From NCBI RefSeq assembly GCF_029215995.1, contig NZ_JAEMVB010000007.1, positions 1-64,000 of the forward strand: DNA of 64,000 bases, in the 5' to 3' direction. This document shows, piece by piece, positions 879-15,246 of the stretch. Position numbers and translations under genes: made by a program. The stretch comes from Sulfurimonas sp. SAG-AH-194-L11. GTDB lineage: Bacteria; Campylobacterota; Campylobacteria; Campylobacterales; Sulfurimonadaceae. Position 1 is the first letter of the stretch. Each line of letters begins with the position of its first letter. Under the pieces are notes generated by a model. It was not told the origin of the DNA. It ran no database searches and saw only the letters and a list, made by a program, of their open reading frames with translations.

Positions 879-1799
879 TTATTCTGTAAGACCTATTAAG
901 ATAGACTCAAAGTCAGTTTGTGCTTTCATTAGTACAGCTTGTGCTTCTTTATCTTTAATCTTCGTAGAACTTAACCAATTATATACAGCTGGAAATCCAA
1001 TAACAATCTTATCTTCATCTTTTTTCTTGTAAACCATAGTCGTACAAGGGGCAAATGCTGAAGCTTCTGGACGAGACTTTGCAACTGTATAGATAACTTT
1101 TAGTTTACAGATAGAGTATGTATCGTAAAAATCATAAGGGCTATCAACAGTTCCCTCTTGTGTAAGTTCTTCGTTTAGGTCAAGAAAAGATGGCATAACA
1201 AAACCAAAAGGCTCAAACTCACCCTCTAAAGTCATCTCAAACTCCTCTTTTGCATCTTCCCAATCTTCACCATCTAAATCCATCTCATATCTTGTAACAA
1301 GCTGGCGAGACTCTTTTAAACTATCTTCACTATATGCAAATTTAGCTTTTGGAAAACTCTTTTTAAAAACAGCTAATAGCTCTGCTTCGATTTTTTTCAA
1401 AATTGAAGTTTCAATATCTAAAATCTTTCCCTGTGCCTCTGCTGTAAGAACAGAGATGTGGAGTGTGTCTTCATTCTTACTTTGGTAAATACCAATACCC
1501 ATAGGAGTCAGAACACCTGCTTGTGGATACTTCTTTACAAGTTCAAGTGCTAAAGTGTTATGATGAAAAGTCATCAGTGTAAAAACTTTAAAACTAGTCT
1601 CTTTAAACTGCTTGTTAAATGGAAGGTTCATCTCGCTGTTAAGATCAACTGCAAAACCATTTGCTACTAGAGCATCTTCTATCATAAGTGGTGTTACTGC
1701 TCCGTCTTTATTTTCTACACTGATTAAGTGTAAGTCACCTTGTGCTTGAAGTGATAGTGCACATAAGAGTGCTATCGCTACGATTATTATTTTTTTCAT
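879..1799 (-). CDS. Secreted DUF302-like protein, tandem copy 1
   Basis: The protein has 306 residues when started at the ATG at 1799, which has AAGGA six bases upstream and matches the start of its paralogue; a longer frame to 1853 is less likely. Residues 1-19 form a Sec signal peptide (MKKIIIVAIALLCALSLQA). Two halves follow, each resembling a DUF302 fold: an N-terminal one around 'TPMGIGIYQ' and a C-terminal one around 'SAFAPCTTMVYKKK', with a single Cys. The function of DUF302 is unknown. The protein is probably periplasmic. It is the last gene of the MBL-DsrE-DUF302 operon and a tandem duplicate of the next gene. The domain assignment is by pattern memory, not by search. Confidence 0.75.
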   Translation of the reverse strand: MKKIIIVAIALLCALSLQAQGDLHLISVENKDGAVTPLMIEDALVANGFAVDLNSEMNLPFNKQFKETSFKVFTLMTFHHNTLALELVKKYPQAGVLTPMGIGIYQSKNEDTLHISVLTAEAQGKILDIETSILKKIEAELLAVFKKSFPKAKFAYSEDSLKESRQLVTRYEMDLDGEDWEDAKEEFEMTLEGEFEPFGFVMPSFLDLNEELTQEGTVDSPYDFYDTYSICKLKVIYTVAKSRPEASAFAPCTTMVYKKKDEDKIVIGFPAVYNWLSSTKIKDKEAQAVLMKAQTDFESILIGLTE

Positions 1800-1872
1800 T
1801 TGTAATCCTTGTTTTATGTCTCTTTTTCTTAAAATGGAATAATACTTAATCATAGTAAAATTAGTATAAATT

Positions 1873-2787
1873 TTATTCTGTAACCTCTTTTAAAATAGAC
1901 TCAAAATCATTTTGTGCTTTTATAAGAGCATCTTCTGCAGCTTTGTCTTTAATCTTAGCAGAACTTAACCAGTTATAAACAGCTGGAAACCCAACAACTA
2001 TTTTATCTTCATCTTTTTTCTTGTAAACCATAGTCGTACAAGGGGCAAATGCTGAAGCTTCTGGACGAGACTTTGCAACTGTATAGATAACTTTTAGTTT
2101 ACAGATAGAGTATGTATCGTAAAAATCATACACTTCTTCAATCTTTTCATCATCTAAAAAAGTCAAATCTTGTGTAGCAGCAACAATAAAACCAAATGGT
2201 TCAAAACTACTCTCTAAGTTCATTTCAAACTCATCTTTTGCATCTTCCCAATCTTCACCATCTAAATCAAGTTCATATAGAGTAATTAAGTCACGAGACT
2301 CTTTTAAACTATCTTCACTTATCTCAAACTTAGCACTTGGAAAATTTTTCTTAAAAAGTGTAAGTAACTCTGTCTCTATCTCTTTAAAAAGAGGAGTTTT
2401 TATCCCAAGTATTTTTTCTTGTGCTTCTGCTGTTAAGATAGATATATGTAATGTATCTTCATTAATACCTTGGTAAATACCAATTCCCATAGGGGTAATA
2501 GCACCTACCTTAGGGTACTTTATGATTAGCTCAGTTGCTAATGTTTTATGATGAAATGTCATTAGTGTAAATACTTTAAAATCAGTCTGCTGAAATTGCT
2601 TCTTAAATGGTCCATTCATTGGGCTATTTAAGTCTACTGCAAAGTTATCTGCATTTAACATTTTTTCAATTTGCTTTGCAGTAACTTTTCCATCTTTATT
2701 ATCTACACTTATTAAATGTAAATCACCTTGTGCTTGAAGTGACAGCGCACATAAAAGTGCTATGGCTACGATTATTATTTTTTTCAT
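1873..2787 (-). CDS. Secreted DUF302-like protein, tandem copy 2
   Basis: This 304-residue paralogue of the adjacent downstream protein has the same signal peptide (residues 1-19) and the same two DUF302-like halves. The proteins are collinear throughout, but the DNA divergence is uneven: positions 2003-2130 are identical to 1009-1136 over 128 bp, while flanking coding sequence has many changes. That suggests local gene conversion or selection. An acidic stretch in the middle (LDGEDWEDAKDEFEM) is shared by both copies. The gene lies 8 bp downstream of the DsrE-like gene and is probably cotranscribed with it. Periplasmic location is inferred; function is unknown. Confidence 0.75.
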   Translation of the reverse strand: MKKIIIVAIALLCALSLQAQGDLHLISVDNKDGKVTAKQIEKMLNADNFAVDLNSPMNGPFKKQFQQTDFKVFTLMTFHHKTLATELIIKYPKVGAITPMGIGIYQGINEDTLHISILTAEAQEKILGIKTPLFKEIETELLTLFKKNFPSAKFEISEDSLKESRDLITLYELDLDGEDWEDAKDEFEMNLESSFEPFGFIVAATQDLTFLDDEKIEEVYDFYDTYSICKLKVIYTVAKSRPEASAFAPCTTMVYKKKDEDKIVVGFPAVYNWLSSAKIKDKAAEDALIKAQNDFESILKEVTE

Positions 2788-2795
2788 TTCTTTTC

Positions 2796-3230
2796 CTATG
2801 GTTTAATATATGTCCAACCGGACTTCACACTCTCAAGTAGTTCAACTACACCAGCTGTTACTATCGTAGAGCCTTCAACAAGATCTTCTTCTTTTACTTT
2901 ATATGTTCTCATGGTATTTCCACAAGCGACAAACTCTACATCTAACTGCATAAGTGCATCTACTCTAGCTGCTGTACTTTTGTTGTTTTTATAGAGTAGT
3001 TTTAAGCCTTTAGAATAGGCAACTATTTTCATGTTAATGTTATCCACTCCATAGTACTTAACAACATTACTCGCAACACTTAGTATATGGTTAAAAGCAT
3101 GCTCGCTATCCTCTGTAACCGAGAAGACTACAAGTCTAGGGTTATCAAATGACGGTTTTGGTTCTGCATACTCAGTTTCTGCAATTGTAACAATACAAAA
3201 GCTTAGTAAAATTAGTATAAATTTCTTCAT
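2796..3230 (-). CDS. Periplasmic DsrE/DsrF-like protein
   Basis: The protein has 144 residues from the ATG at 3230, preceded by GGAG; a start 15 bases further upstream would overlap the previous gene. Residues 1-18 are a signal peptide (MKKFILILLSFCIVTIAE). The rest resembles the DsrE-like fold: a 'PRLVVFSVTED' beta strand, then 'IKIVAYSKGL'-type and 'VEFVACGNTM' segments with one conserved Cys in the position used by DsrE-family sulfur carriers. DsrE relatives relay sulfur or form small hexamers. A role in periplasmic sulfur handling is likely from its place beside the MBL and sox genes, but this is inference. The gene begins 2 bp after the MBL gene stop. Confidence 0.75.
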   Translation of the reverse strand: MKKFILILLSFCIVTIAETEYAEPKPSFDNPRLVVFSVTEDSEHAFNHILSVASNVVKYYGVDNINMKIVAYSKGLKLLYKNNKSTAARVDALMQLDVEFVACGNTMRTYKVKEEDLVEGSTIVTAGVVELLESVKSGWTYIKP

Positions 3231-3232
3231 AT

Positions 3233-4138
3233 TTAGTTCTCCCATTCTAACATTCTATATGCCGTCTCTACATTTTGTCTATGCATAGAGTCATATAGAT
3301 GTATATTTTTAAATTTGTCCATAGTAAGAGTGTTAACAACATCACCGATATCCATACCCTCATCAATAAGTGTTAGTACTGATTCTCTAAGAGTTTTAAG
3401 ATACTCATAAGTCATTTTCACACTTTCTCTTGAGACCATTGTACCATGTCCACCTACGATATACTTAACATCCAGTAAAAGTATCTCATCAAGTGCTTCC
3501 AACCAGCCTTTTAAATCACCATCTCTTATAGAGGGGAGTCTATCATTAAAAACCAAGTCTCCTACAAAAACTATTTTCTTACTTGGTATATAAACATAAA
3601 TATCACTATTTGTATGTGCTTTATGACCAATATTTTTAATGATTACTTTTTTATGTGCAAGATAAAGCACCATCTCTTCATCAACAAAGAGTTCCGGATG
3701 CAGTTGCATTGTCTTTTCATATGCCTCTGGTGATATTCTGCGTTTCATTCTAGGCATCTCTTCTATTGCTAAGTCTTTAAAGGCAGAGGATCCTATTATC
3801 TTTGCACCTTGACTCTTATAGTAACTGTTTCCTAACCAATGGTCATCATGCACATGCGTATTTATGACATACTTTACTGGTAAGTCAGCTATTTTTTTCA
3901 TCTGCATATATGCTTGCTCGGCATACTGATATGTTGGTCCACTATCTATGACTATATAGCTACTACCCATATTTACAAAGCATGAGTTCGCCATATTTCC
4001 ATTGTTTTGAGTGTTCATCGCTTGGGGTAAACCAAAAAAACAGTGTATAGGACTAGAGCCAATTTTTACTGGTTTAAGTTGATAATCAAAGGAAAAAAGA
4101 GTTAAAGAGAGTAGTAAAGTAAAAAAAATAGTCTTCAA
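3233..4138 (-). CDS. MBL-fold metallohydrolase, SoxH-like, secreted
   Basis: The protein has 301 residues and starts with TTG at 4138, with AAGGA six bases upstream. An N-terminal signal peptide (MKTIFFTLLLSLTLFS) sends it to the periplasm. The metal-binding motif HVHDDH (around residues 95-100) lies in 'NTHVHDDHWLGN', with further ligands in 'GHKAHT', 'FVGDLVF' and 'VGGHG'. This is the glyoxalase-II/beta-lactamase fold, close to SoxH and to the 'quinoprotein relay system zinc metallohydrolase' group. Its substrate is unknown; thiol-ester or persulfide hydrolysis is plausible. It heads the DsrE-DUF302 operon, and a TTTTACA direct repeat stands upstream. Confidence 0.85.
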   Translation of the reverse strand: MKTIFFTLLLSLTLFSFDYQLKPVKIGSSPIHCFFGLPQAMNTQNNGNMANSCFVNMGSSYIVIDSGPTYQYAEQAYMQMKKIADLPVKYVINTHVHDDHWLGNSYYKSQGAKIIGSSAFKDLAIEEMPRMKRRISPEAYEKTMQLHPELFVDEEMVLYLAHKKVIIKNIGHKAHTNSDIYVYIPSKKIVFVGDLVFNDRLPSIRDGDLKGWLEALDEILLLDVKYIVGGHGTMVSRESVKMTYEYLKTLRESVLTLIDEGMDIGDVVNTLTMDKFKNIHLYDSMHRQNVETAYRMLEWEN

Positions 4139-4178: not shown

Positions 4179-4211
4179 ATAGTACTTGAATATTGTAAAA
4201 GGAATGTAAAA
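4179..4211 (-). promoter_or_regulatory. Candidate regulated promoter of the MBL/DsrE/DUF302 operon
   Basis: On the minus strand: TTTTACA (4211-4205), 4 nt, TTTTACA (4200-4194), 9 nt, then TACTAT (4184-4179). The 7-4-7 direct repeat and its distance to the -10-like hexamer are the same as upstream of soxX. A second -10-like TATAAT at 4161-4156 lies closer to the gene. The layout resembles OmpR/PhoB-class boxes; the periodic T-rich promoter signal of Campylobacterota is an alternative. Confidence 0.45.
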
Positions 4212-5764: not shown

Positions 5765-7525
5765 CTAACAGCTACGAGAGCCTTTAACCGGACAACCACA
5801 GTCATAATCAACTAAAGTAACATTCCCTGCGTTACTTACATCAACTACACCCTGACGTTTAATATAGTCACGAGTTACATCATATACAGGACGAATTTTA
5901 TCTTTTTGAAGGTTTTCACCCGCATTTTGAAGGTTTCCACCCCATGATGAAACTACATATGTCTTGTCCAAATCTATCGGCTTACCACCGATCATAAGCT
6001 TAGAGATTCTCTCTCCAGCTTTACCGGCTACTGCGATAGAATATGTAACACCACCTAAGCGACTCATGTCACCACCTTGTTGATAAAGAGGATTTGCATT
6101 AAATACATTATCCGCGATATCTTCAAGTAGGTTGGCGATTTGTTTCCCTTTCAAATCAAATGTATAAACACTAGGGTAAGTAATACCACACATCTCATAT
6201 ACATTATCCATTAAAATATCATCACCTGCAAGTACAGTTGTTCCCCATCTATAACCAGGAGTGAATGACATGTCGCATTTCATCTCGTCCATGATTGCAT
6301 CATTAATGAGCTGATCAAAAGTTGAGAAGAATGTATCACGCTTATAAAGAGTACCTTTAGTTTTACCTAAAACCTCATTTAACTCTTTATCAAAAGGTGC
6401 ATATAACTCATTTACTAGCTTAACACCCTCTGGATCTGCTGGAATAATGTTAGAAGCCATAGGTACAAGCTTATACTCATAACCATGAACTTTACCATTA
6501 CTCGCATCTATATCTAAACGTCCAACATACTTACCATGACTACCAGCAATAACGATAACTGTACCCTCAACCGTAATAGGTTGTGGAGAAGGGTCATGTG
6601 TATGACCACTTAAGATAAAGTCGATACCGTGGACCATACGAGCCACTTCTTGATCAACTGAGAAACCATCGTGAGAAATCACAACAACACAATCAACCTT
6701 ATGCTCATTTCTAAGTTCATTTACATAGTCTTGAAGTGTTTCAGGTCTAATTCCGAAGCTCCAACCCTCTGTAAACTCTTTAGGATTTGCAGTAGAAGTA
6801 AATGGGAATGCCTGACCGATAACACCGATTTTAGCACCACCACGCTCTTCTATAGTATATGGTTCAAATATTAACTCTTCATACTCATCTTCAAAAGGAT
6901 CATTTCCGATTACATTTTGAGCAACGAACTTAGCATCTAGCATTTCGATAAGTTCAAGAACTCTCTCTTTACCATATGTAAATTCCCAGTGACCAGTCAT
7001 AATGTCAACACCAAGATAGTTTTGAGCCTTAACGATAGCCTCCCCACGAGTCTTAAGTGCAACACCAGTACCTTGCCAAGTATCTCCAGAGTCAAGGAAA
7101 AGAACATTTTCATTTCCACGCTCTTTACGAACATGATCAAGATATGTTTTCATATGGGCGATACCACCCATCTTTCCAAACTTTTTAGCTAAAGCTTCAA
7201 AGTCCATATATGTATCAAAATATGCATCTAAACTTGATGGCTCTAGTCCATAATGTTTTGCAAAAGCTTCACCACATAAGAAACCAGGTGTACCAACTAA
7301 ATTAGGAGCAGAGATTAATGTAGAAGGCTCTCTCCAATACAGTGGTTTAATATGGGCATGAATATCACACATATGTAACAGTGTGAAATTTCCCATAGAG
7401 TTAAATTTATAAATATCTTGTGCAGATAATTTATTTATTGTTTTAGTACTAGCAACTCCACTTGTTGCAGCTCCTAAACCTAGGATTGCTGCAATATGCA
7501 TAAAGTCTCTTCTTGAAATATCCAC
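5765..7525 (-). CDS. soxB: Thiosulfohydrolase SoxB
   Basis: The protein has 586 residues. It starts with GTG at 7525, with AGAAGG about eight bases upstream. A Tat signal (SRRDFM, residues 4-9) exports it folded to the periplasm. Family motifs are clear: the metallophosphoesterase-type ligands in CDIHAH (53-58), DSGDTW (145-150), the SoxB hallmark GHWEFTYG (178-185), SHDGF (284-288) and SGHTHD (306-311), then a 5'-nucleotidase-like C-terminal domain. SoxB hydrolyses sulfate from the SoxY-bound thiosulfonate using two Mn ions. The C-terminus carries three extra cysteines (CGCPVKGSRSC). It is the fifth gene of the sox operon, 12 bp after soxA. Confidence 0.97.
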   Translation of the reverse strand: MDISRRDFMHIAAILGLGAATSGVASTKTINKLSAQDIYKFNSMGNFTLLHMCDIHAHIKPLYWREPSTLISAPNLVGTPGFLCGEAFAKHYGLEPSSLDAYFDTYMDFEALAKKFGKMGGIAHMKTYLDHVRKERGNENVLFLDSGDTWQGTGVALKTRGEAIVKAQNYLGVDIMTGHWEFTYGKERVLELIEMLDAKFVAQNVIGNDPFEDEYEELIFEPYTIEERGGAKIGVIGQAFPFTSTANPKEFTEGWSFGIRPETLQDYVNELRNEHKVDCVVVISHDGFSVDQEVARMVHGIDFILSGHTHDPSPQPITVEGTVIVIAGSHGKYVGRLDIDASNGKVHGYEYKLVPMASNIIPADPEGVKLVNELYAPFDKELNEVLGKTKGTLYKRDTFFSTFDQLINDAIMDEMKCDMSFTPGYRWGTTVLAGDDILMDNVYEMCGITYPSVYTFDLKGKQIANLLEDIADNVFNANPLYQQGGDMSRLGGVTYSIAVAGKAGERISKLMIGGKPIDLDKTYVVSSWGGNLQNAGENLQKDKIRPVYDVTRDYIKRQGVVDVSNAGNVTLVDYDCGCPVKGSRSC

Positions 7526-7537
7526 TTGTCTAACCTT

Positions 7538-8311
7538 CTATCTTTTTAAACCAGGTACTGCTATTTCAGCACCTTTAGCTTCACTTGTTAAGTAAACCTC
7601 TAAAGCAACCATTTCAGGTGAACCAATAGGAATAACTTTTAAAAGTGCATTTTTCATACAACCCTGGAAACGACGTTGTAATGTTCTTAGAGATGACTTA
7701 GTCATTCTATATGCTGGCCAAGTCGCTGCAACGGCAACACCTTTAGCACTTAAGTCTGGTAGTGGTTGTGTTCTTAAAACACTTCCAATAACAGCGTCAG
7801 AGTGACATGAGTTACAAGATAAACCTCTACCACCACGTTTAGTCATGTAAGTTTTCTCACCAAGGGCATATGCTTCTTTCATCTGTTTGTTAGCATTAAC
7901 ATCAATGTTAGACTTTTCACCATTTGCAAGAGACTTAACATATGAACTCATATCAAACATATCTCCACTCTTAAGCTTAAATGGTTTGTGACCATTTTTA
8001 TACATTAAGCCTTGAAGTACTTGATCTATTCCAACAACTTGTTTAAACTCTGGTAAGTAGCGTGGAAAACCTGCTAAGTAAGCTGGTAGGCTATCTTCAG
8101 TTTGCTTTAAAAATGCAGCAATACCTTCATCGCCACCACAATACTCAGCTAAAAGTTCTTCACCGTTAGCAACCATTAAATCTGCTGGGTTGTTTTCTAA
8201 CATCTCAGCATACATAGCACGGTCAGCATCACTCATTGCAAACTGCTCTCCACCAAACGATAGTGTAGAAAGTAGTGCAACAGATAAAGCTATTTTAATT
8301 CCTGTTTTCAT
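7538..8311 (-). CDS. soxA: Sulfur oxidation c-type cytochrome SoxA (mono-heme form)
   Basis: The protein has 257 residues when started at the ATG at 8311 (AAAGGA eight bases upstream); an upstream Met would overlap soxZ. Residues 1-20 are a signal peptide. Only one heme site, CNSCH, is present (about 166-170). The Cys in 'RFQGCMKN' (about 218) is the expected cysteine persulfide heme ligand. The position of the second heme in di-heme SoxA reads 'YCGGDEG', with no CxxCH, so this is the mono-heme type. With SoxX it links thiosulfate oxidatively to SoxY in the periplasm. A 4-bp gap separates it from soxZ. Confidence 0.95.
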   Translation of the reverse strand: MKTGIKIALSVALLSTLSFGGEQFAMSDADRAMYAEMLENNPADLMVANGEELLAEYCGGDEGIAAFLKQTEDSLPAYLAGFPRYLPEFKQVVGIDQVLQGLMYKNGHKPFKLKSGDMFDMSSYVKSLANGEKSNIDVNANKQMKEAYALGEKTYMTKRGGRGLSCNSCHSDAVIGSVLRTQPLPDLSAKGVAVAATWPAYRMTKSSLRTLQRRFQGCMKNALLKVIPIGSPEMVALEVYLTSEAKGAEIAVPGLKR

Positions 8312-8315
8312 CTGA

Positions 8316-8654
8316 CTATCCTTTTGGTTTAATCTTTTTACTTTTCTCATTTACTTCACCAGTATTATCTGTGTAAGTAACAGTTAATTTACCCTTACCA
8401 TTTATTTTCATGTAAGTTGTAAACACAGGGTTTGTAGAAAGAGCTTCCCAAACAGTCATGTTTGTAATCTCTTTACCGTTGTAGTTAAACTTAACACTGT
8501 TAATAAACTTAGCAGGAATAAGCTGCTTTGTTTTTTTATCTTTAGTTGTACCAGTAGCCATAGGGTGCATTACCATAAAACTTACTTTAACAACTTCCCC
8601 ATCTTTGAATTTTTTTGGTTTGATTTTAATCAGTGACTTTCTTTTTTGTGCCAT
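8316..8654 (-). CDS. soxZ: Sulfur-carrier complex subunit SoxZ
   Basis: The 112-residue protein matches SoxZ in length and in segments such as 'MVMHPMATG' and 'FTTYMKINGKG'. It has no signal peptide, as expected, because SoxZ is co-exported with Tat-dependent SoxY. It forms the SoxYZ heterodimer that holds sulfur intermediates on the SoxY cysteine arm. It lies 53 bp after soxY and 4 bp before soxA. Confidence 0.96.
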   Translation of the reverse strand: MAQKRKSLIKIKPKKFKDGEVVKVSFMVMHPMATGTTKDKKTKQLIPAKFINSVKFNYNGKEITNMTVWEALSTNPVFTTYMKINGKGKLTVTYTDNTGEVNEKSKKIKPKG

Positions 8655-8707
8655 CTTTTCTATCCTTAATTTTTATATTTTTATATCTCTAAAGTTTGGG
8701 GTTAGAA

Positions 8708-9175
8708 TCAACCACAACCACCGATTGTTACTTTTACACTTTGAGTAGCGATTAAAAAATCACCATTGCTAAGTTCAACTAATGCACTTACTTCTTGAGT
8801 TCCACCAAGTTTTATACGAGTTGAGAACATTGCTTTACCATTTGCAGGTGTAAGATTTACATCAATACAACGTGCGTTAAAGTTTTTAGAAGCTAAGATA
8901 TGAATAGCTTTTACATAATCACTTGAAGTCATTGGAGACTCTACATTTACAGTAACTGGAACAACAGCACCATTTTCAGCAATCTCTGGAACTTTAAGTT
9001 TTACTTTTGCTGATTTCTTAGCAGTTTTACCACCTGTAATTGCATGTACTGCTGTCGCATATGACATTGCATTTTTACTTTTTGGCTTGTCGCCTGCGAA
9101 ACTCATTACTGGAGCTACAGCACTTACAGCTGCTACAACACCTAATTTTTTGAAAAAATCTCTTCTTTGCATCAT
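8708..9175 (-). CDS. soxY: Sulfur-carrier protein SoxY
   Basis: The 155-residue protein has a Tat signal (QRRDFF, residues 3-8, followed by a hydrophobic stretch) and ends in GGCG, the swinging arm whose Cys (residue 154) carries the thiosulfate-derived sulfur. The usual end is GGCGG, so one Gly is missing here. Two adjacent ATG codons (9175 and 9172) are possible starts, with AAGGA just upstream. SoxYZ is the shared substrate carrier for SoxXA and SoxB in the periplasm and needs its arm kept reduced, a likely job for the DsbD/thioredoxin genes upstream. Confidence 0.96.
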   Translation of the reverse strand: MMQRRDFFKKLGVVAAVSAVAPVMSFAGDKPKSKNAMSYATAVHAITGGKTAKKSAKVKLKVPEIAENGAVVPVTVNVESPMTSSDYVKAIHILASKNFNARCIDVNLTPANGKAMFSTRIKLGGTQEVSALVELSNGDFLIATQSVKVTIGGCG

Positions 9176-9187
9176 TCTATTTTCCTT

Positions 9188-9742
9188 CTATTTTGGAGAT
9201 ACGATATATGAAGTAATATCACATATTTCTTTTGGAGTAAATAACTTAGTTGTTAAGTTAACTGTCATGTGTGTGTCTGGATTGTCAACACGAGGATCGG
9301 CAATTTTTTGGAAAACAAACTTGTTATCTCTTACACCAGTATCCATAAACATAGACTTGTAGCCTGTTAAGTCTGGACCAATATTACCAGCTCCACGAGC
9401 ACCTTCAATATTGTGACATGCAATACAGTTACCATATTGCTTCGCAGGAATTTTCATTCCTGGTAAATATGTTTTACCTGGTTTCATTTGTTTACGAGCT
9501 AAACCTTTTGGTGGGTTCTTCTTCGCTTTTTTACCATTTAAGTTATGGAATATAAAAGCACCTCTAGCTATTGACTCAGGGTTTGTTGTTACACAACCAG
9601 CAGGCATTTTAAATACTGTTGCAGGTGCTAATAAATCTTTTTCAATCAGCTTACTTGCATTTGGTTTTTCAATAACACCGCTATAATCAGCAGCGAAAAC
9701 AGATGCACTTACAAGTAGTGACATAATCAAAGTTTTTTTCAT
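9188..9742 (-). CDS. soxX: Sulfur oxidation c-type cytochrome SoxX
   Basis: The 184-residue protein has a signal peptide (residues 1-18), one heme site CIACH (106-110) and a likely axial Met in 'DTHMTV' (about 159). It forms SoxXA, which couples thiosulfate to SoxY and passes electrons to the respiratory chain. AGGAG lies eight bases before the ATG. It is the first gene of the sox operon; the promoter region upstream contains a TTTTACA direct repeat and a TATACT -10 candidate. Confidence 0.96.
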   Translation of the reverse strand: MKKTLIMSLLVSASVFAADYSGVIEKPNASKLIEKDLLAPATVFKMPAGCVTTNPESIARGAFIFHNLNGKKAKKNPPKGLARKQMKPGKTYLPGMKIPAKQYGNCIACHNIEGARGAGNIGPDLTGYKSMFMDTGVRDNKFVFQKIADPRVDNPDTHMTVNLTTKLFTPKEICDITSYIVSPK

Positions 9743-9771: not shown

Positions 9772-9804
9772 AGTATAACTTTGCAATGTAAAATTTATGT
9801 AAAA
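9772..9804 (-). promoter_or_regulatory. Candidate sox promoter with response-regulator-type direct repeat
   Basis: On the minus strand: TTTTACA (9804-9798), TAAA, TTTTACA (9793-9787), 9 nt, TATACT (9777-9772), then soxX at 9742. The repeat overlaps where a -35 box would be, as in PhoB-type activation. The OmpR-class regulator encoded upstream is the natural candidate binder. No protein binding can be proven from sequence. Confidence 0.5.
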
Positions 9805-9820
9805 TTAGATTTATTTATAT

Positions 9821-10978
9821 TTATTTGTTGAAATTTGCTGGAAAGATGTATAAAAAGAGCGTGCCTTTTTTAGGTATTGATTCTATTTCAAGGTCTATAT
9901 TGTCTTCATTAATAATTGACTTAACTATGTTGAGGCCTATACCAAAGCCTCCTTTAGCTGTATCTTCACGATAATAACGACTAAATATTTTTTCAGTTTT
10001 TTTAATACCAACACCATAATCTTTAAAACTCAGATGACAGCGATCATCTTGCATATATAGTGTTATATCTATAGTAGAGTTCTCATATGAGTACTTAATT
10101 GCATTAGAAATATTGTTATCAATTAACCTTTGCAACTGTTTATCATTCATATAGACAATTTTGCACTCAGAAAGTTTCGTATTTATGATGATATTTTTCA
10201 TTTTAGCAACTTCACTAAAGTACTCAACTCTCTCTTTGAGAAACTCTTTTATGTCTATTTCATGTTTTTTATACTCAAGTCGTTCATGTTTTATAAGGTA
10301 ATCCATATCATCATAGATATTTGATAGTACTTTTGTCGCAGCTTTCATTCTCTGCATATACTTATTCTCTTCATTCTTTCTATTATAAAGATCTATATTT
10401 ACATTTATTATAGAAAGAGGTGTATTTATCTCATGCATCGAGTCTTTTATAAAGTTATCGAGCTGTTTGTTCATTTTTTGAAAAGGTTTGGCAAAACTAC
10501 GCAAGAAAAATACACTGAGGATAAAAACAAATATAACGATGGCAAAAAGAATCATTAAAACTTTCTCATATACCGTTGCAAAAGATATAGTATTTTTAAC
10601 GATGAGATACTTCGCACCAAAATATCTTCTATGTGGTAGTTTTACTATTATGTAAGCATTGTTATCATCAAGATGATATCCATCTTTAAAATACTTTAAG
10701 TTGTAATCAAGTAGTGAAAAAATTGGTTTAAAACTTTCATCATAGAGTCCTGATGTAAAAGTTTTATAACGAGGGTATTCAAAGTACTCCTCTGCTTGGT
10801 TATAGTCTTGCATCGCTTTTACTATAAGTAGAGACTTTTCTTTGAGAAACAGCTCATTTTGAATAGAGTGAATGTGTTTCATATATGTAAAATAATAAAA
10901 CAGAGGAGCAAGTAAGACTAAGGCAACCAATCCGGTATAAATAAGTGCATACTTTGTCGAGTAGGTATTATCGTTCAA
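9821..10978 (-). CDS. Membrane sensor histidine kinase
   Basis: The 385-residue protein has two membrane segments (about 10-30 and 139-160) around a ~110-residue periplasmic sensing part. The H-box 'MHEINTPLS' has the phosphorylated His at 182. The ATPase domain has an N-box (NNISNAIKY, near 288), G1 (DYGVG, 320-324) and G2 (GGFGIGL, 343-349). It should autophosphorylate and signal to the response regulator, whose gene overlaps its start by 11 bp. It is the last gene of the dsbD-trx-sensor-regulator-kinase operon, and soxX begins 78 bp beyond it, so control of sox is likely. Confidence 0.93.
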   Translation of the reverse strand: MNDNTYSTKYALIYTGLVALVLLAPLFYYFTYMKHIHSIQNELFLKEKSLLIVKAMQDYNQAEEYFEYPRYKTFTSGLYDESFKPIFSLLDYNLKYFKDGYHLDDNNAYIIVKLPHRRYFGAKYLIVKNTISFATVYEKVLMILFAIVIFVFILSVFFLRSFAKPFQKMNKQLDNFIKDSMHEINTPLSIINVNIDLYNRKNEENKYMQRMKAATKVLSNIYDDMDYLIKHERLEYKKHEIDIKEFLKERVEYFSEVAKMKNIIINTKLSECKIVYMNDKQLQRLIDNNISNAIKYSYENSTIDITLYMQDDRCHLSFKDYGVGIKKTEKIFSRYYREDTAKGGFGIGLNIVKSIINEDNIDLEIESIPKKGTLFLYIFPANFNK

Positions 10979-11621
10979 TAATATACCCTAAACCACGTCT
11001 ATTTTGAATCGTACCAATAGGGAGCTTCTTCTTAAGGTTATTGAGTTGAACACGAATGGTAGCAGGTTCTACATAGTCACCCCATACCTCATCTTGAAAC
11101 ATTTCAGTTGAGACAATTGCATTTTTATTTTTTATAAGTACTTCTAGCATATCTTTTTCCGTTTTACGAAGTACTATCTCTTTTTCTTTTAAGAGTAACT
11201 GACTACGTTTCAAATCATATGTAAGAGAATCACCTAAATCAATCACATTGCTATCGTTATTAAGATAACTTGCAAGTGCCTGATCTATTCGTAACTCTAA
11301 CTCCATCAGGTCAAATGGTTTTCGCATATAGTCACAACATCCGCGTTTATAACCCTCTTTTAAATCATTTACATCTGTCATAGATGTTAAAAAGATAGCA
11401 GGAATAGTAATATCATCAAGACGTAATCTTTTTAAAAGCTCAAAACCTGTTAAAGTTGGAACATTTACATCTAAAAGTAGTAAATCATAACTTTTATCAT
11501 AAATCGCATCATATGCTTCTAGTCCATCCATAAAACCATCTACTTCATAACCTAAGTCTTCTAAAAACTCTTCTATACTAATACGAAGAGAGTATTCATC
11601 TTCTAAAAGCAAAATTTTCAT
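10968..11621 (-). CDS. OmpR/PhoB-family response regulator
   Basis: The 217-residue protein has an N-terminal receiver domain with acidic pocket E7/D8, phosphoacceptor D51 (in LLLLDVNVP) and K101 (in MRKPFD). A C-terminal winged-helix DNA-binding domain (about 125-217) ends in 'NRRGLGYII', typical of the family. It overlaps the sensor gene upstream (4 bp) and the kinase downstream (11 bp). Members bind tandem 7-bp repeats spaced by 4 bp; repeats of that form stand before soxX and before the MBL operon. Confidence 0.95.
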   Translation of the reverse strand: MKILLLEDEYSLRISIEEFLEDLGYEVDGFMDGLEAYDAIYDKSYDLLLLDVNVPTLTGFELLKRLRLDDITIPAIFLTSMTDVNDLKEGYKRGCCDYMRKPFDLMELELRIDQALASYLNNDSNVIDLGDSLTYDLKRSQLLLKEKEIVLRKTEKDMLEVLIKNKNAIVSTEMFQDEVWGDYVEPATIRVQLNNLKKKLPIGTIQNRRGLGYIIER

Positions 11622-12712
11622 TTAATTCTCCCGTCTACTTTTTTAATTATTTTTCTATTGAGCATAATCTGTATAAGTTCATCTTTAGAGTACTTATCAA
11701 ACTTACTATATGCCTCATCGAAAAAAATCTCTCTATCTTCTTTTTCTATTACATTTTCAAAATCTAAAAGATCACTTGCACTAAATGCATCGTAAACATT
11801 GTTTTTATACTTATCTTCTTTTACTACATCATATAATGAACTTCTTGTAACATTGATTAAAAAACTGATATCGTCGTTGGGATTTCTAAAGTAATCTAAA
11901 TAACGCTCAGGTAGAACAAAGATATATCCACCAATCACTTCTGAACTTCCGTTATACATATTTTCATAAAAAATGTATTTATTATTTTTATACATCATTC
12001 CATCATGTTTTAAGGTCTTTAGTTTTAGGTTTTGAAGTGTCTGTACATGTGAGTAGTTATAGTTTCTATTTGCTACTACACTCTGACAGATAGAAAGGTT
12101 TTGTGTCATTAGTACCGCAGAGTCCATATGTTTAAAGTCCAGTAAAACATACAAATCAACACCTAGTGTACTAAAAAACTCAGTAATACCCTTAAAAAAA
12201 GAGATAACTTCCACATAGCCTAGAAGTTCACCATCTTTATAAATGGGAACTGTAGACTTTAGTCCTAAACGCCGTCCAATCTCGATGGAACTTCTTGGTG
12301 TTTTATGTGTTTTAAAGTAATCTAAATCACTCCTAGCATCTCCTATTGGCATACCTGCATACATATCATCCCAACTTCTAGTAAATATATTTAGGTCTTT
12401 AGTGATAATTTGTGCACGGGTATGGATGTCTGTATTTAACTCAATTGTATTTAAGATATCTGCGAGGAGTGTATACCCTAAATCTTCATCATCATTCTCT
12501 AATGCCCGCGCAAGAGCTTCATTTTTAGAGAGGGATATTGCAGTTTTAAGATCATCCATCATGTGTGTTTCTAGTTGGTTTTCAAGGGTAATGGAAAGTT
12601 GATCCATGATAGCATTGATTTTTTGCTCTTTGAGTGTCTTTTTTACATAAAAAGTAGAAATAAGTATAATAGATAAGAGTACCACAAATGCGATAATTAT
12701 TTTATTTAACAA
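11618..12712 (-). CDS. Membrane-anchored Cache-like sensor protein without kinase domain
   Basis: The 364-residue protein has one N-terminal membrane segment (about 4-22), then a large periplasmic region resembling a double Cache sensor: a long helix (residues 25-75), 'DLNIFTRSWDDMYAG', 'PIYKDGELLGYVEV' and 'GGYIFVLP'. No kinase, GGDEF, HAMP or methyl-accepting domain follows, and the C-terminus is a charged tail. It lies in the same operon as a kinase and a regulator (4-bp overlap with the regulator), so it may pass a periplasmic signal to the kinase as a third component. That role is inference. Similar sensory parts normally belong to chemoreceptors or kinases. Confidence 0.7.
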   Translation of the reverse strand: MLNKIIIAFVVLLSIILISTFYVKKTLKEQKINAIMDQLSITLENQLETHMMDDLKTAISLSKNEALARALENDDEDLGYTLLADILNTIELNTDIHTRAQIITKDLNIFTRSWDDMYAGMPIGDARSDLDYFKTHKTPRSSIEIGRRLGLKSTVPIYKDGELLGYVEVISFFKGITEFFSTLGVDLYVLLDFKHMDSAVLMTQNLSICQSVVANRNYNYSHVQTLQNLKLKTLKHDGMMYKNNKYIFYENMYNGSSEVIGGYIFVLPERYLDYFRNPNDDISFLINVTRSSLYDVVKEDKYKNNVYDAFSASDLLDFENVIEKEDREIFFDEAYSKFDKYSKDELIQIMLNRKIIKKVDGRIK

Positions 12713-12715
12713 AAA

Positions 12716-13111
12716 CTACTCTTCTTCTTTATGTTTGTTTAACTCTTGCAGAACTTCTATAAAGTCTTTTATATGTAAGCCACCATTTAATCTCTTAAGT
12801 ATTTTTTCATTTTTATCTAAAAAGTAAAATGTAGGAGTCGCAAAATACTCTAGGTTTTGAGGTACAAAGTCTTGGTTTACATCTAAGTCAACGGCCAAAA
12901 AACTATCGTTTAGAAGTTTATTGACTTTTTTATCTTCAAAAACGACATTATGCATATACTCACAGCCGGGGCAGCCTTCTCTTGAGAGCATGACCATTAC
13001 TATCTTGTTACTCGCCTGTGCATCATCAAAAACATCGAACATATCATTCCACTCTACTTTTGCGGATAAAGATGAGATGAAGATAAAAAGAAGTAAAAAT
13101 ATTGTTTTCAT
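12716..13111 (-). CDS. Periplasmic thioredoxin-like protein
   Basis: The 131-residue protein has a signal peptide (residues 1-17) and a thioredoxin fold with active site CPGC (47-50) and the cis-Pro loop 'ATPTFYF'. It lies 12 bp after dsbD. DsbD can pass electrons from cytoplasmic thioredoxin to such a partner, and the two may reduce SoxY or cytochrome maturation proteins, like SoxW. It is shorter than SoxW of Paracoccus and lacks other domains, so 'SoxW-like' describes context, not proven family. Confidence 0.85.
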   Translation of the reverse strand: MKTIFLLLFIFISSLSAKVEWNDMFDVFDDAQASNKIVMVMLSREGCPGCEYMHNVVFEDKKVNKLLNDSFLAVDLDVNQDFVPQNLEYFATPTFYFLDKNEKILKRLNGGLHIKDFIEVLQELNKHKEEE

Positions 13112-13123
13112 GTTTATCCTTGA

Positions 13124-14872
13124 CTACAGAGTATTTAAGTGTGCTAAAAACTCATCTGGTGCTATAAAGCCTATGATTGTTTTTGCTTTTTTAACCTCTC
13201 CATTTTCATCAAAGAAAATTAGAGCAGGAGGTCCAAAAACACCATACTTTTTACTGAGTAATTTTTCTTTTTGAGTGTTTTTTGTTACATCTGCCCGTAC
13301 TAAAACAAATTCACTCATTTTTGCCTTAACATCTGCATCTGCAAATGTTATCTCTTCGAGTTCTTTACAAGATGTACACCAGTCTGCTGCAAAATCAAGT
13401 AAAATCTTTTTTCCCTTATTTGCTGCTAAAATTGCATCTAACTCTTCTATAGAGTGCACTACTTCAAAGCTTATCTCTTTTAGCTCTTGAGACGCCACTC
13501 CTTGAACTACTATGGGTTGATTTAGAAATCCTAAAGGTTTTAGCATACTTGATGAGCCTGCTAAAAACCCTATAAATAGTGAGATAGAGTATATAAAAAT
13601 TATCATAGCAACACTATGTTTGAAAAAATGATGATCTTTTTCAAAAACACCAAGGTATAAGGAGAAACCAATTCCTAAAATACTGTACATAATCATAATG
13701 ATAGATGGGTCCAGAATCTTCTCAAGCATCCAAATAGCTACCCCAAGCATCATCACACCAAAAATAGCACTTACCATAGTCATCCATGCACCAGGTTTAG
13801 GCATAAACTTCCCTGCACTCACCCCAACAGCAATAAGAGGAAGCCCCATACCTATACTCATAGAAAACAGAGCCATTCCACCAAGAACAGCGTCACCAGT
13901 TTGACCTATGTAGACAAGAGCTCCAGCAAGAGGAGCTGCGACACAAGGCCCAACTATAAGAGCTGATAAAAAGCCCATAATAGCAACACCAATATAGCCT
14001 CCACGATTACTTCCTGAACTTACTTTTGTTACTAAAGAGTCTGGTAGTTTTAACTCATAAAAACCAAACATACTAAAAGCAAGTGCTACAAAAACTAAAG
14101 AAAATGAGTAAATCACCCAAGGCATTTGGAGTGCTGCTTGAAGATTTGCTCCAAAGAGTCCAGCTAAAACCCCTGCAATAGTATAAGCTACAGCCATTGA
14201 TAAGACATATACAATTGAAAGTGCAAAAGCTTTCTTTGTCGTCAGTCCTTCTCCCTGAGAGACAATAACACCCGAAATAATAGGAATCATAGGAAAAACA
14301 CAAGGTGTCATTGCAAGTAAAAGACCAAAACCTAAAAATGTCAAAAGAATGATTCCAATACTTCCTGACTTGATAGTATCTGCAATAGCATCACTCTCTG
14401 AGAGCTCTACTTGCGAACTCTTTGGTGTAGTTTGAGTAGTTTGAGGGGAAAGTTTGGAAACATCAAGTGAAAGAGGAAACTCTTTTACATATGGGTTATA
14501 GCATAGACCCATTTCAGAACAACCTTGATAAGATAAAACAAGAGTAAACTTCTGTACTCCGCTTAGGTTTTCAGGATTTTCTAATGTAAGAATAAACTCT
14601 GGAGAGAGAGTATAGACCTGTTCTCCTTCATGATCTACTGACACAGGTTTTTGTGTCTCTTTTATCTTGAGTGTAGTGCCTTTTAATGTAGCACTCATTT
14701 TCTCAGCATAAATATATATATCTTTACCAAGGATTACACCTGTTTGTATTTGAGCATTTTCATTTACCTTTGCATAAGGTTTAAAAGCCTCATCAGGCAT
14801 CAAAAAATCTCCTGAGTATAATGCACTCATTGTAAGTGACATTAGTATAAATATCTTAATTATAAATCTCAT
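13124..14872 (-). CDS. dsbD: Thiol:disulfide interchange protein DsbD
   Basis: The 582-residue protein has all three DsbD parts: a signal peptide and periplasmic alpha domain with a Cys pair (C118, C124), a membrane domain with about eight helices and the redox cysteines in 'TPCVFPMIP' and 'VGPCVAAPL', and a C-terminal thioredoxin domain with CTSC (about 499-502). It carries reducing power from the cytoplasm to the periplasm. It is the first gene of an operon with a thioredoxin and a two-component system that reads into sox, which suggests it keeps SoxY or cytochrome c biogenesis partners reduced. Confidence 0.95.
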   Translation of the reverse strand: MRFIIKIFILMSLTMSALYSGDFLMPDEAFKPYAKVNENAQIQTGVILGKDIYIYAEKMSATLKGTTLKIKETQKPVSVDHEGEQVYTLSPEFILTLENPENLSGVQKFTLVLSYQGCSEMGLCYNPYVKEFPLSLDVSKLSPQTTQTTPKSSQVELSESDAIADTIKSGSIGIILLTFLGFGLLLAMTPCVFPMIPIISGVIVSQGEGLTTKKAFALSIVYVLSMAVAYTIAGVLAGLFGANLQAALQMPWVIYSFSLVFVALAFSMFGFYELKLPDSLVTKVSSGSNRGGYIGVAIMGFLSALIVGPCVAAPLAGALVYIGQTGDAVLGGMALFSMSIGMGLPLIAVGVSAGKFMPKPGAWMTMVSAIFGVMMLGVAIWMLEKILDPSIIMIMYSILGIGFSLYLGVFEKDHHFFKHSVAMIIFIYSISLFIGFLAGSSSMLKPLGFLNQPIVVQGVASQELKEISFEVVHSIEELDAILAANKGKKILLDFAADWCTSCKELEEITFADADVKAKMSEFVLVRADVTKNTQKEKLLSKKYGVFGPPALIFFDENGEVKKAKTIIGFIAPDEFLAHLNTL

Positions 14873-14902: not shown

Positions 14903-15024
14903 TTACTATAAAAAGTGTGTATTCTTTGTGTAATTATAAAGCGAAGAGACTTTTATTATCTTTATACTCTTTTTAATGCTTATTTGTCTAGAATAATACT
15001 AAAATTATATAAAAAAAGAGTAAA

Positions 15025-15246
15025 ATGATTGATTTAAACACAGAAATATGTGCTTGTAATTCATTGACTATAGAATGTATTGCAACATGTATCAAAAAAA
15101 ATAATTATAACACTTTAGATGAACTTTTAGAGAACGATGTATGTCCTATGGGAGACAAGTGTGAATCTTGTCGAGATGAGGGTATAAACAACGATGGTTT
15201 AAATATCCCCTTTGTTCTAGCTCGTGTTCAACGCGGGGAATTTTAA
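15025..15246 (+). CDS. BFD-like [2Fe-2S]-binding protein
   Basis: The 73-residue protein has a Cys pattern like the bacterioferritin-associated ferredoxin domain: CAC near residue 9 ('ICACNSLT'), then a helix-loop segment and CESC at about 53-56, with other cysteines at CIATC and VCPMGDKC. A [2Fe-2S] cluster is the likely cofactor; the partner is unknown. It is longer at the C-terminus than canonical Bfd and has extra cysteines. It precedes the YyaL-like gene by 26 bp and is probably in one operon with it. Confidence 0.65.

Follow-up and report, generated by a model that had tools for sequence, protein, structure and literature searches.

A tandem direct repeat, TTTTACA-N4-TTTTACA, stands ahead of soxX in the DNA analysed here, a 64,000-nucleotide stretch from Sulfurimonas sp. 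SAG-AH-194-L11 (the window). It is probably the site at which the OmpR/PhoB-type response regulator of the neighbouring sensor cassette would bind as a dimer and activate the sox genes (probability about 0.85). A first, sequence-only reading of the window had proposed a response-regulator box at this place, and the rarity of the motif, its conservation at soxX across the order and its tracking with the regulator all support that prediction. The second exact copy, the dCache_3 component and the wider candidate regulon described below go beyond that reading.

The soxX promoter and its gene neighbourhood

Box 1 (TTTTACA-TAAA-TTTTACA; positions 9787 to 9804, minus strand) is an exact copy of the motif and the candidate tandem regulator site of soxX. 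Along the minus strand the order is ctaa-TTTTACA-taaa-TTTTACA-TTGCAAAGT-TATACT, with the box read from 9804 to 9787, the proposed soxX -10 hexamer 9 nt further on (9777 to 9772) and the soxX ATG 3' of both at 9742; the arrangement is thus present as first described. The soxX gene (9188 to 9742, minus strand; TIGR04485 above cut-off) is the first of soxXYZAB and is followed in transcription order by soxY, soxZ, soxA and soxB (5765 to 9175, minus strand; TIGR04488, TIGR04490, TIGR04484 and TIGR04486 above cut-off), with which it is proposed to form one operon. SoxX, SoxY, SoxZ, SoxA and SoxB equivalogs all score above the NCBIfam cut-offs, as in a Sox thiosulfate-oxidation cluster. A porin gene (Porin_O_P, PF07396; 4450 to 5679, minus strand) lies after soxB, and no ArsR-type soxR was found among the scanned proteins of the cluster.

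The OmpR-class regulator and kinase that the sequence-only reading had placed in the adjacent upstream genes were identified by domain analysis. The proposed box binder (10968 to 11621, minus strand) carries Response_reg (PF00072) and Trans_reg_C (PF00486) domains above cut-off, its fold matches agree with the OmpR/PhoB family, and the receiver residues E7, D8, D51, T79 and K101 are invariant in 11 regulator orthologues. Its gene is overlapped by that of a membrane histidine kinase (9821 to 10978, minus strand; HATPase_c above cut-off, HisKA just below) and, at the regulator start, by that of a membrane dCache_3 protein without a kinase domain (11618 to 12712, minus strand; PF14827). The sox-linked cassette consists of three genes, for a kinase-less dCache_3 membrane protein, a response regulator and a kinase; where the contig is intact, the dCache_3 gene almost always stands before the regulator.

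With respect to further boxes in the cluster, a second exact copy (box 2, TTTTACA-TTCC-TTTTACA; 4194 to 4211, minus strand) is followed after 9 nt by TACTAT, a proposed -10 (4179 to 4184, minus strand). The first gene 3' of it encodes a SoxH-like metallo-hydrolase (3233 to 4138, minus strand; PF00753) whose best NCBIfam model is TIGR04559, SoxH-related, at a score below cut-off; a DsrE-like gene (2796 to 3245, minus strand; PF02635) and two DUF302 genes (879 to 2787, minus strand; PF03625) also stand 3' of box 2. Both halves of box 2 are kept with a changed spacer in two close relatives, and a third relative has one mismatch. A weak, degenerate box, TTTTACTCTTTTTTTATA (15008 to 15025, minus strand), lies 9 nt before TATTAT and 136 nt ahead of the DsbD-thioredoxin-dCache-regulator-kinase genes, and scores 12 to 13 of 14 letters in close relatives; it may possibly serve autoregulation of the sensor operon. 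Ahead of the sensor cassette, genes for thioredoxin-like and DsbD-like proteins span 12716 to 14872 (minus strand; Thioredoxin_2 at 12716 to 13111, DsbD by sequence reading).

Rarity, conservation and tracking with the regulator

A search of the draft genome (79% complete, 1.81 Mb) gave no exact copies of the motif besides boxes 1 and 2, both in the sox cluster. When one mismatch was allowed, 17 sites were found against 12 for a reversed-pattern control, so that within this genome only the exact form is informative; the one-mismatch matches were set aside as mostly intragenic and close to background in number, and a site before a hisS-like gene was taken as chance. Across 135 genomes of the genus, ATTTTACANNNATTTTACA was found in 53 places, 45 of them soxX promoters, with 6 for the reversed control. 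As the sequence-only reading had suggested, the search was carried genome-wide: the motif was not common before unrelated genes, and sulfur-oxidation genes follow most of those additional, well-placed sites that were inspected.

The comparison covered 144 distinct soxX promoters, taken from Sulfurimonas, Sulfuricurvum and other Campylobacterales. At least 12 of the 14 motif letters were present in 132 of them (92%; 14/14 in 88, 13 in 32 and 12 in 12), a level that dinucleotide-shuffled versions of these promoters reached in 1.6%, and the first TA...T started exactly 9 nt past the box in 124 of the 132. A profile was built from 63 promoters whose identity outside the box is below 60%. In it, two blocks at a distance of 11 bp and a TA...T are conserved and the spacer varies, with the ACA ends of the half-sites as conserved as the T runs; conservation of the box columns is in part due to the selection of matches on them, while the -10 columns were unselected. 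In upstream sequences of the genus the repeat is largely constant and the flanks and spacer vary, and three genomes carry three repeats at the 11-bp period. The dCache-regulator-kinase-box-soxX order is kept in Sulfuricurvum, in Arcobacter-labelled MAGs and in other families of the order, and in distant relatives the half-site loosens to about [AT]TTTA[CT]A. The motif is thus present and conserved at the sox promoters of relatives in several Campylobacterales families, where the sequence-only reading had advised looking for it. Because this comparison reveals conservation beyond the surroundings, box 1 is taken to be a regulatory site. Two MAGs (G074 and G043) carry extra, divergent soxX copies like those of other families (L131; L132 and L133), possibly through contamination.

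Presence of the box followed presence of the regulator. Among the 135 genus genomes, regulator orthologues (about 65% identity or more, fragments counted) were found in 51, SoxX in 53 and both in 48; in one regulator-only genome (G018) the contig ends just past the box and an apparent soxX start. A strict pattern that included the -10 was searched in 399 genomes of the order, with a profile E-value of at most 1e-60 defining regulator-positive genomes, and gave 83 matches in 63 genomes (5 for the reversed control). It was present in 54 of 127 regulator-positive and 9 of 272 regulator-negative genomes; the Fisher P of 2.9e-22 is only a guide, because the test ignores shared ancestry. Since most boxes share a locus with the regulator, much of the tracking could reflect joint inheritance.

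These comparisons bear on whether the repeat is a chance texture of T-rich Campylobacterota promoters with no regulatory meaning, a caveat raised in the sequence-only reading that we now consider very improbable. The genome is AT-rich, and with two mismatches allowed the window holds 8 sites against 4 expected, a count reached by 9 of 100 shuffles. Against this stand the two exact copies in 1.8 Mb, the conserved ACA ends, the 1.6% of shuffles that reach 12/14, and the near absence of the motif from genomes without the regulator. The box could instead be read by another OmpR-type regulator of the cell, with the neighbouring system a bystander: at E<=1e-30 the genome encodes two additional members of the regulator's family, and paralogous cassettes elsewhere use the same word. 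We judge this improbable, since the box and the adjacent regulator co-occur across genus and order and soxX genomes without a detected regulator lack a good box (none in G141, and only an 11/14 sequence in G407 and G460).

Loci in which the kinase is separated from soxX led us to reject the idea that the box is conserved as a passenger of the kinase gene's 3' end. In G006 the cassette is on a separate contig and the box is still at soxX; in G289 and G156 the regulator is remote from soxX and a box-like sequence is retained; and in L197 and L210, where about 2.5 to 2.7 kb separates kinase and soxX, the box is at soxX, in degenerate form in L210. That the box stays with soxX where the kinase lies elsewhere suggests a cis element of soxX. 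G049 (L103, at about 5940 in the oriented sequence) lacks all three of regulator, kinase and box, and the regulator's first 20 codons run in frame into soxX; either a genuine deletion or a fault of assembly may explain this. G411 is only an apparent exception to box conservation, since its box is intact ahead of an element inserted between it and soxX. The insert (L238) is about 270 bp long and has inverted ends (GGCACCTCTAAAAACCCTGCATG), as in a small mobile element. In G058 a group II intron end (Rfam RF00029; L107:24-125) lies just upstream of soxX where the contig begins, and no box was seen between the intron end and soxX.

Candidate regulon and paralogous cassettes

The box and its spacing also occur elsewhere, and a small sulfur-oxidation regulon beyond sox is proposed to share them. 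They precede DUF302-type genes at several loci (L329-L334 and L344, with a DUF302 relative in L345), Sulf_transp (YeeE-type), rhodanese, DsrE and SoxH-like genes at other sites, and dCache_3 chemoreceptors in two Sulfuricurvum-group genomes. One of the DUF302 loci (L329; G269:C1:1763000-1774000) contains three box-plus-DUF302 copies at 3,883-bp spacing, an apparent tandem triplication near sox genes. In the genome of the window, intergenic sites with one mismatch are found before a stand-alone dCache_3 protein, where the 9-nt spacing is kept in orthologues, and an OprD porin, where the site is kept in three relatives and has no -10 at 9 nt. Identities of 22 to 30% relate this stand-alone protein, the chemoreceptor and the dCache protein of the sox cassette to one another. 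Two sites in G002 did not fit: one lies before a short OmpR-type DNA-binding protein and the other before a gene which we take to encode a MoxR-type ATPase, with no obvious sulfur link.

Paralogous dCache-regulator-kinase cassettes were found beside cytochrome-like genes (L315-L317 and L320; several CxxCH motifs, read by eye), and TTTTACA-N4-TTTTACA precedes neighbours of several of them. Their regulators share the recognition helix DPAN(I/V)RVQINNLRKK with the Sulfuricurvum sox regulators (DPANIRVQINNLRKK), and this helix resembles that of the window's regulator (EPATIRVQLNNLKKK). No box was found next to cassettes with a different recognition helix, (E/Y)ADIR(V/M)CIK (L322, L327 and L328), two of which lie beside a SoxA/TsdA-like cytochrome gene. 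The correlation hints that the TTTTACA word goes with the recognition helix.

Tentatively, and at somewhat less than even odds, we suggest that the Campylobacterales share three-component cassettes (kinase-less dCache_3 protein, OmpR-type regulator and kinase) which read TTTTACA-N4-TTTTACA and control periplasmic sulfur and cytochrome genes, with dCache_3 chemoreceptors and stand-alone dCache_3 proteins in the regulon. If this is true, sox expression and chemotaxis may both be set by a single sulfur compound that the cell senses.

Proposed mechanism and comparison with known systems

In the proposed mechanism, reduced sulfur would be sensed via the dCache_3 protein and the kinase would phosphorylate the OmpR/PhoB-family regulator encoded two genes upstream of soxX. 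Two regulator molecules in head-to-tail orientation would then occupy the direct repeat of 11-bp period, which overlies the -35 region at 9 nt from the -10, and would bring in RNA polymerase to transcribe soxXYZAB. Through box 2 the same regulator in the same geometry would act on the SoxH-like, DsrE and DUF302 genes, and on a small regulon elsewhere. A periplasmic reduced sulfur compound is suggested as the signal because of the place of the dCache_3 protein and the content of the regulon. The motif, its spacing and conservation, its tracking with the regulator and the content of the regulon are seen in the sequences; binding, phosphorylation, activation rather than repression, and the sensing of reduced sulfur through dCache_3 are what we infer.

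The 18-bp pho box repeat of E. coli phoA lies 10 nt from TATAGT, and PhoB activates at phoA; activation is favoured here because the geometry is the same. A regulator that reads the box could instead repress sox when no reduced sulfur donor is present, with the signal releasing expression. The sequence evidence for pairing of box and regulator fits repression equally well, the SoxR proteins known to regulate sox genes act as repressors, and polymerase can also be blocked from a site that overlies the -35 region. However, the constant 9-nt gap to the -10 is expected from polymerase contact, whereas a repressor would tolerate other positions, and the layout equals that of the phoA pho box. We consider repression unlikely and retain activation by the cassette regulator.

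Members of the Campylobacterota rank among the main oxidisers of sulfur at vents and redoxclines, and together the regulator, site, spacing and candidate regulon make their sensing of reduced sulfur directly testable. Chemoreceptors are also brought into view by the motif, as are additional sulfur genes whose function is not known (DUF302, DsrE, porins). A search of the open-access literature gave no regulator of sox in this phylum, so priority is uncertain; a review of respiratory regulation in Campylobacterota (PMC6682613) names none, nor do the Sulfurimonas papers examined.

Regulators of sulfur-oxidation genes described in other bacteria include the ArsR-type SoxR, whose sox-linked form is reported from Proteobacteria only, and the CsoR-type TTHA1953 (PMC10451225, PMC10318464). 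Both are one-component and cytoplasmic, whereas a membrane-linked phosphorelay would exert the control here. In Acidithiobacillus caldus, two-component systems are described next to sulfur-oxidation genes, namely RsrS-RsrR and TspS-TspR, the latter upstream of a sox cluster (PMC5093147). According to the parts of that paper used here, RsrR controls tetH through a 19-bp site that differs from the TTTTACA box, TspR is sigma54-dependent, and a dCache_3 third component is not mentioned for either system. The RsrR site (AACACCTGTTACACCTGTT) is termed an inverted repeat in PMC5093147 and, as printed there, reads as a 9-bp direct repeat (ACACCTGTT twice).

Within the OmpR/PhoB family, the regulator's best matches in structure and in sequence include PmrA/BasR on tandem boxes, with the PmrA-DNA complex 4s04 among them. 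PmrA/BasR differs in DNA word, sensor and genes, and the window's regulator scores 108 against a PmrA cut-off of 330. An assignment to PhoBR was rejected on scores (regulator, TIGR02154, 97.9 against a cut-off of 296.2; kinase, TIGR02966, 114.6 against 334.2) and on the half-site. PhoB on the pho box nevertheless shares with the present system its regulator family and a 7-4-7 direct repeat of 11-bp period that ends 9 to 10 nt before the -10, but there the half-site is CTGTCAT and the genes serve phosphate, whereas here the half-site is TTTTACA and the genes serve sulfur.
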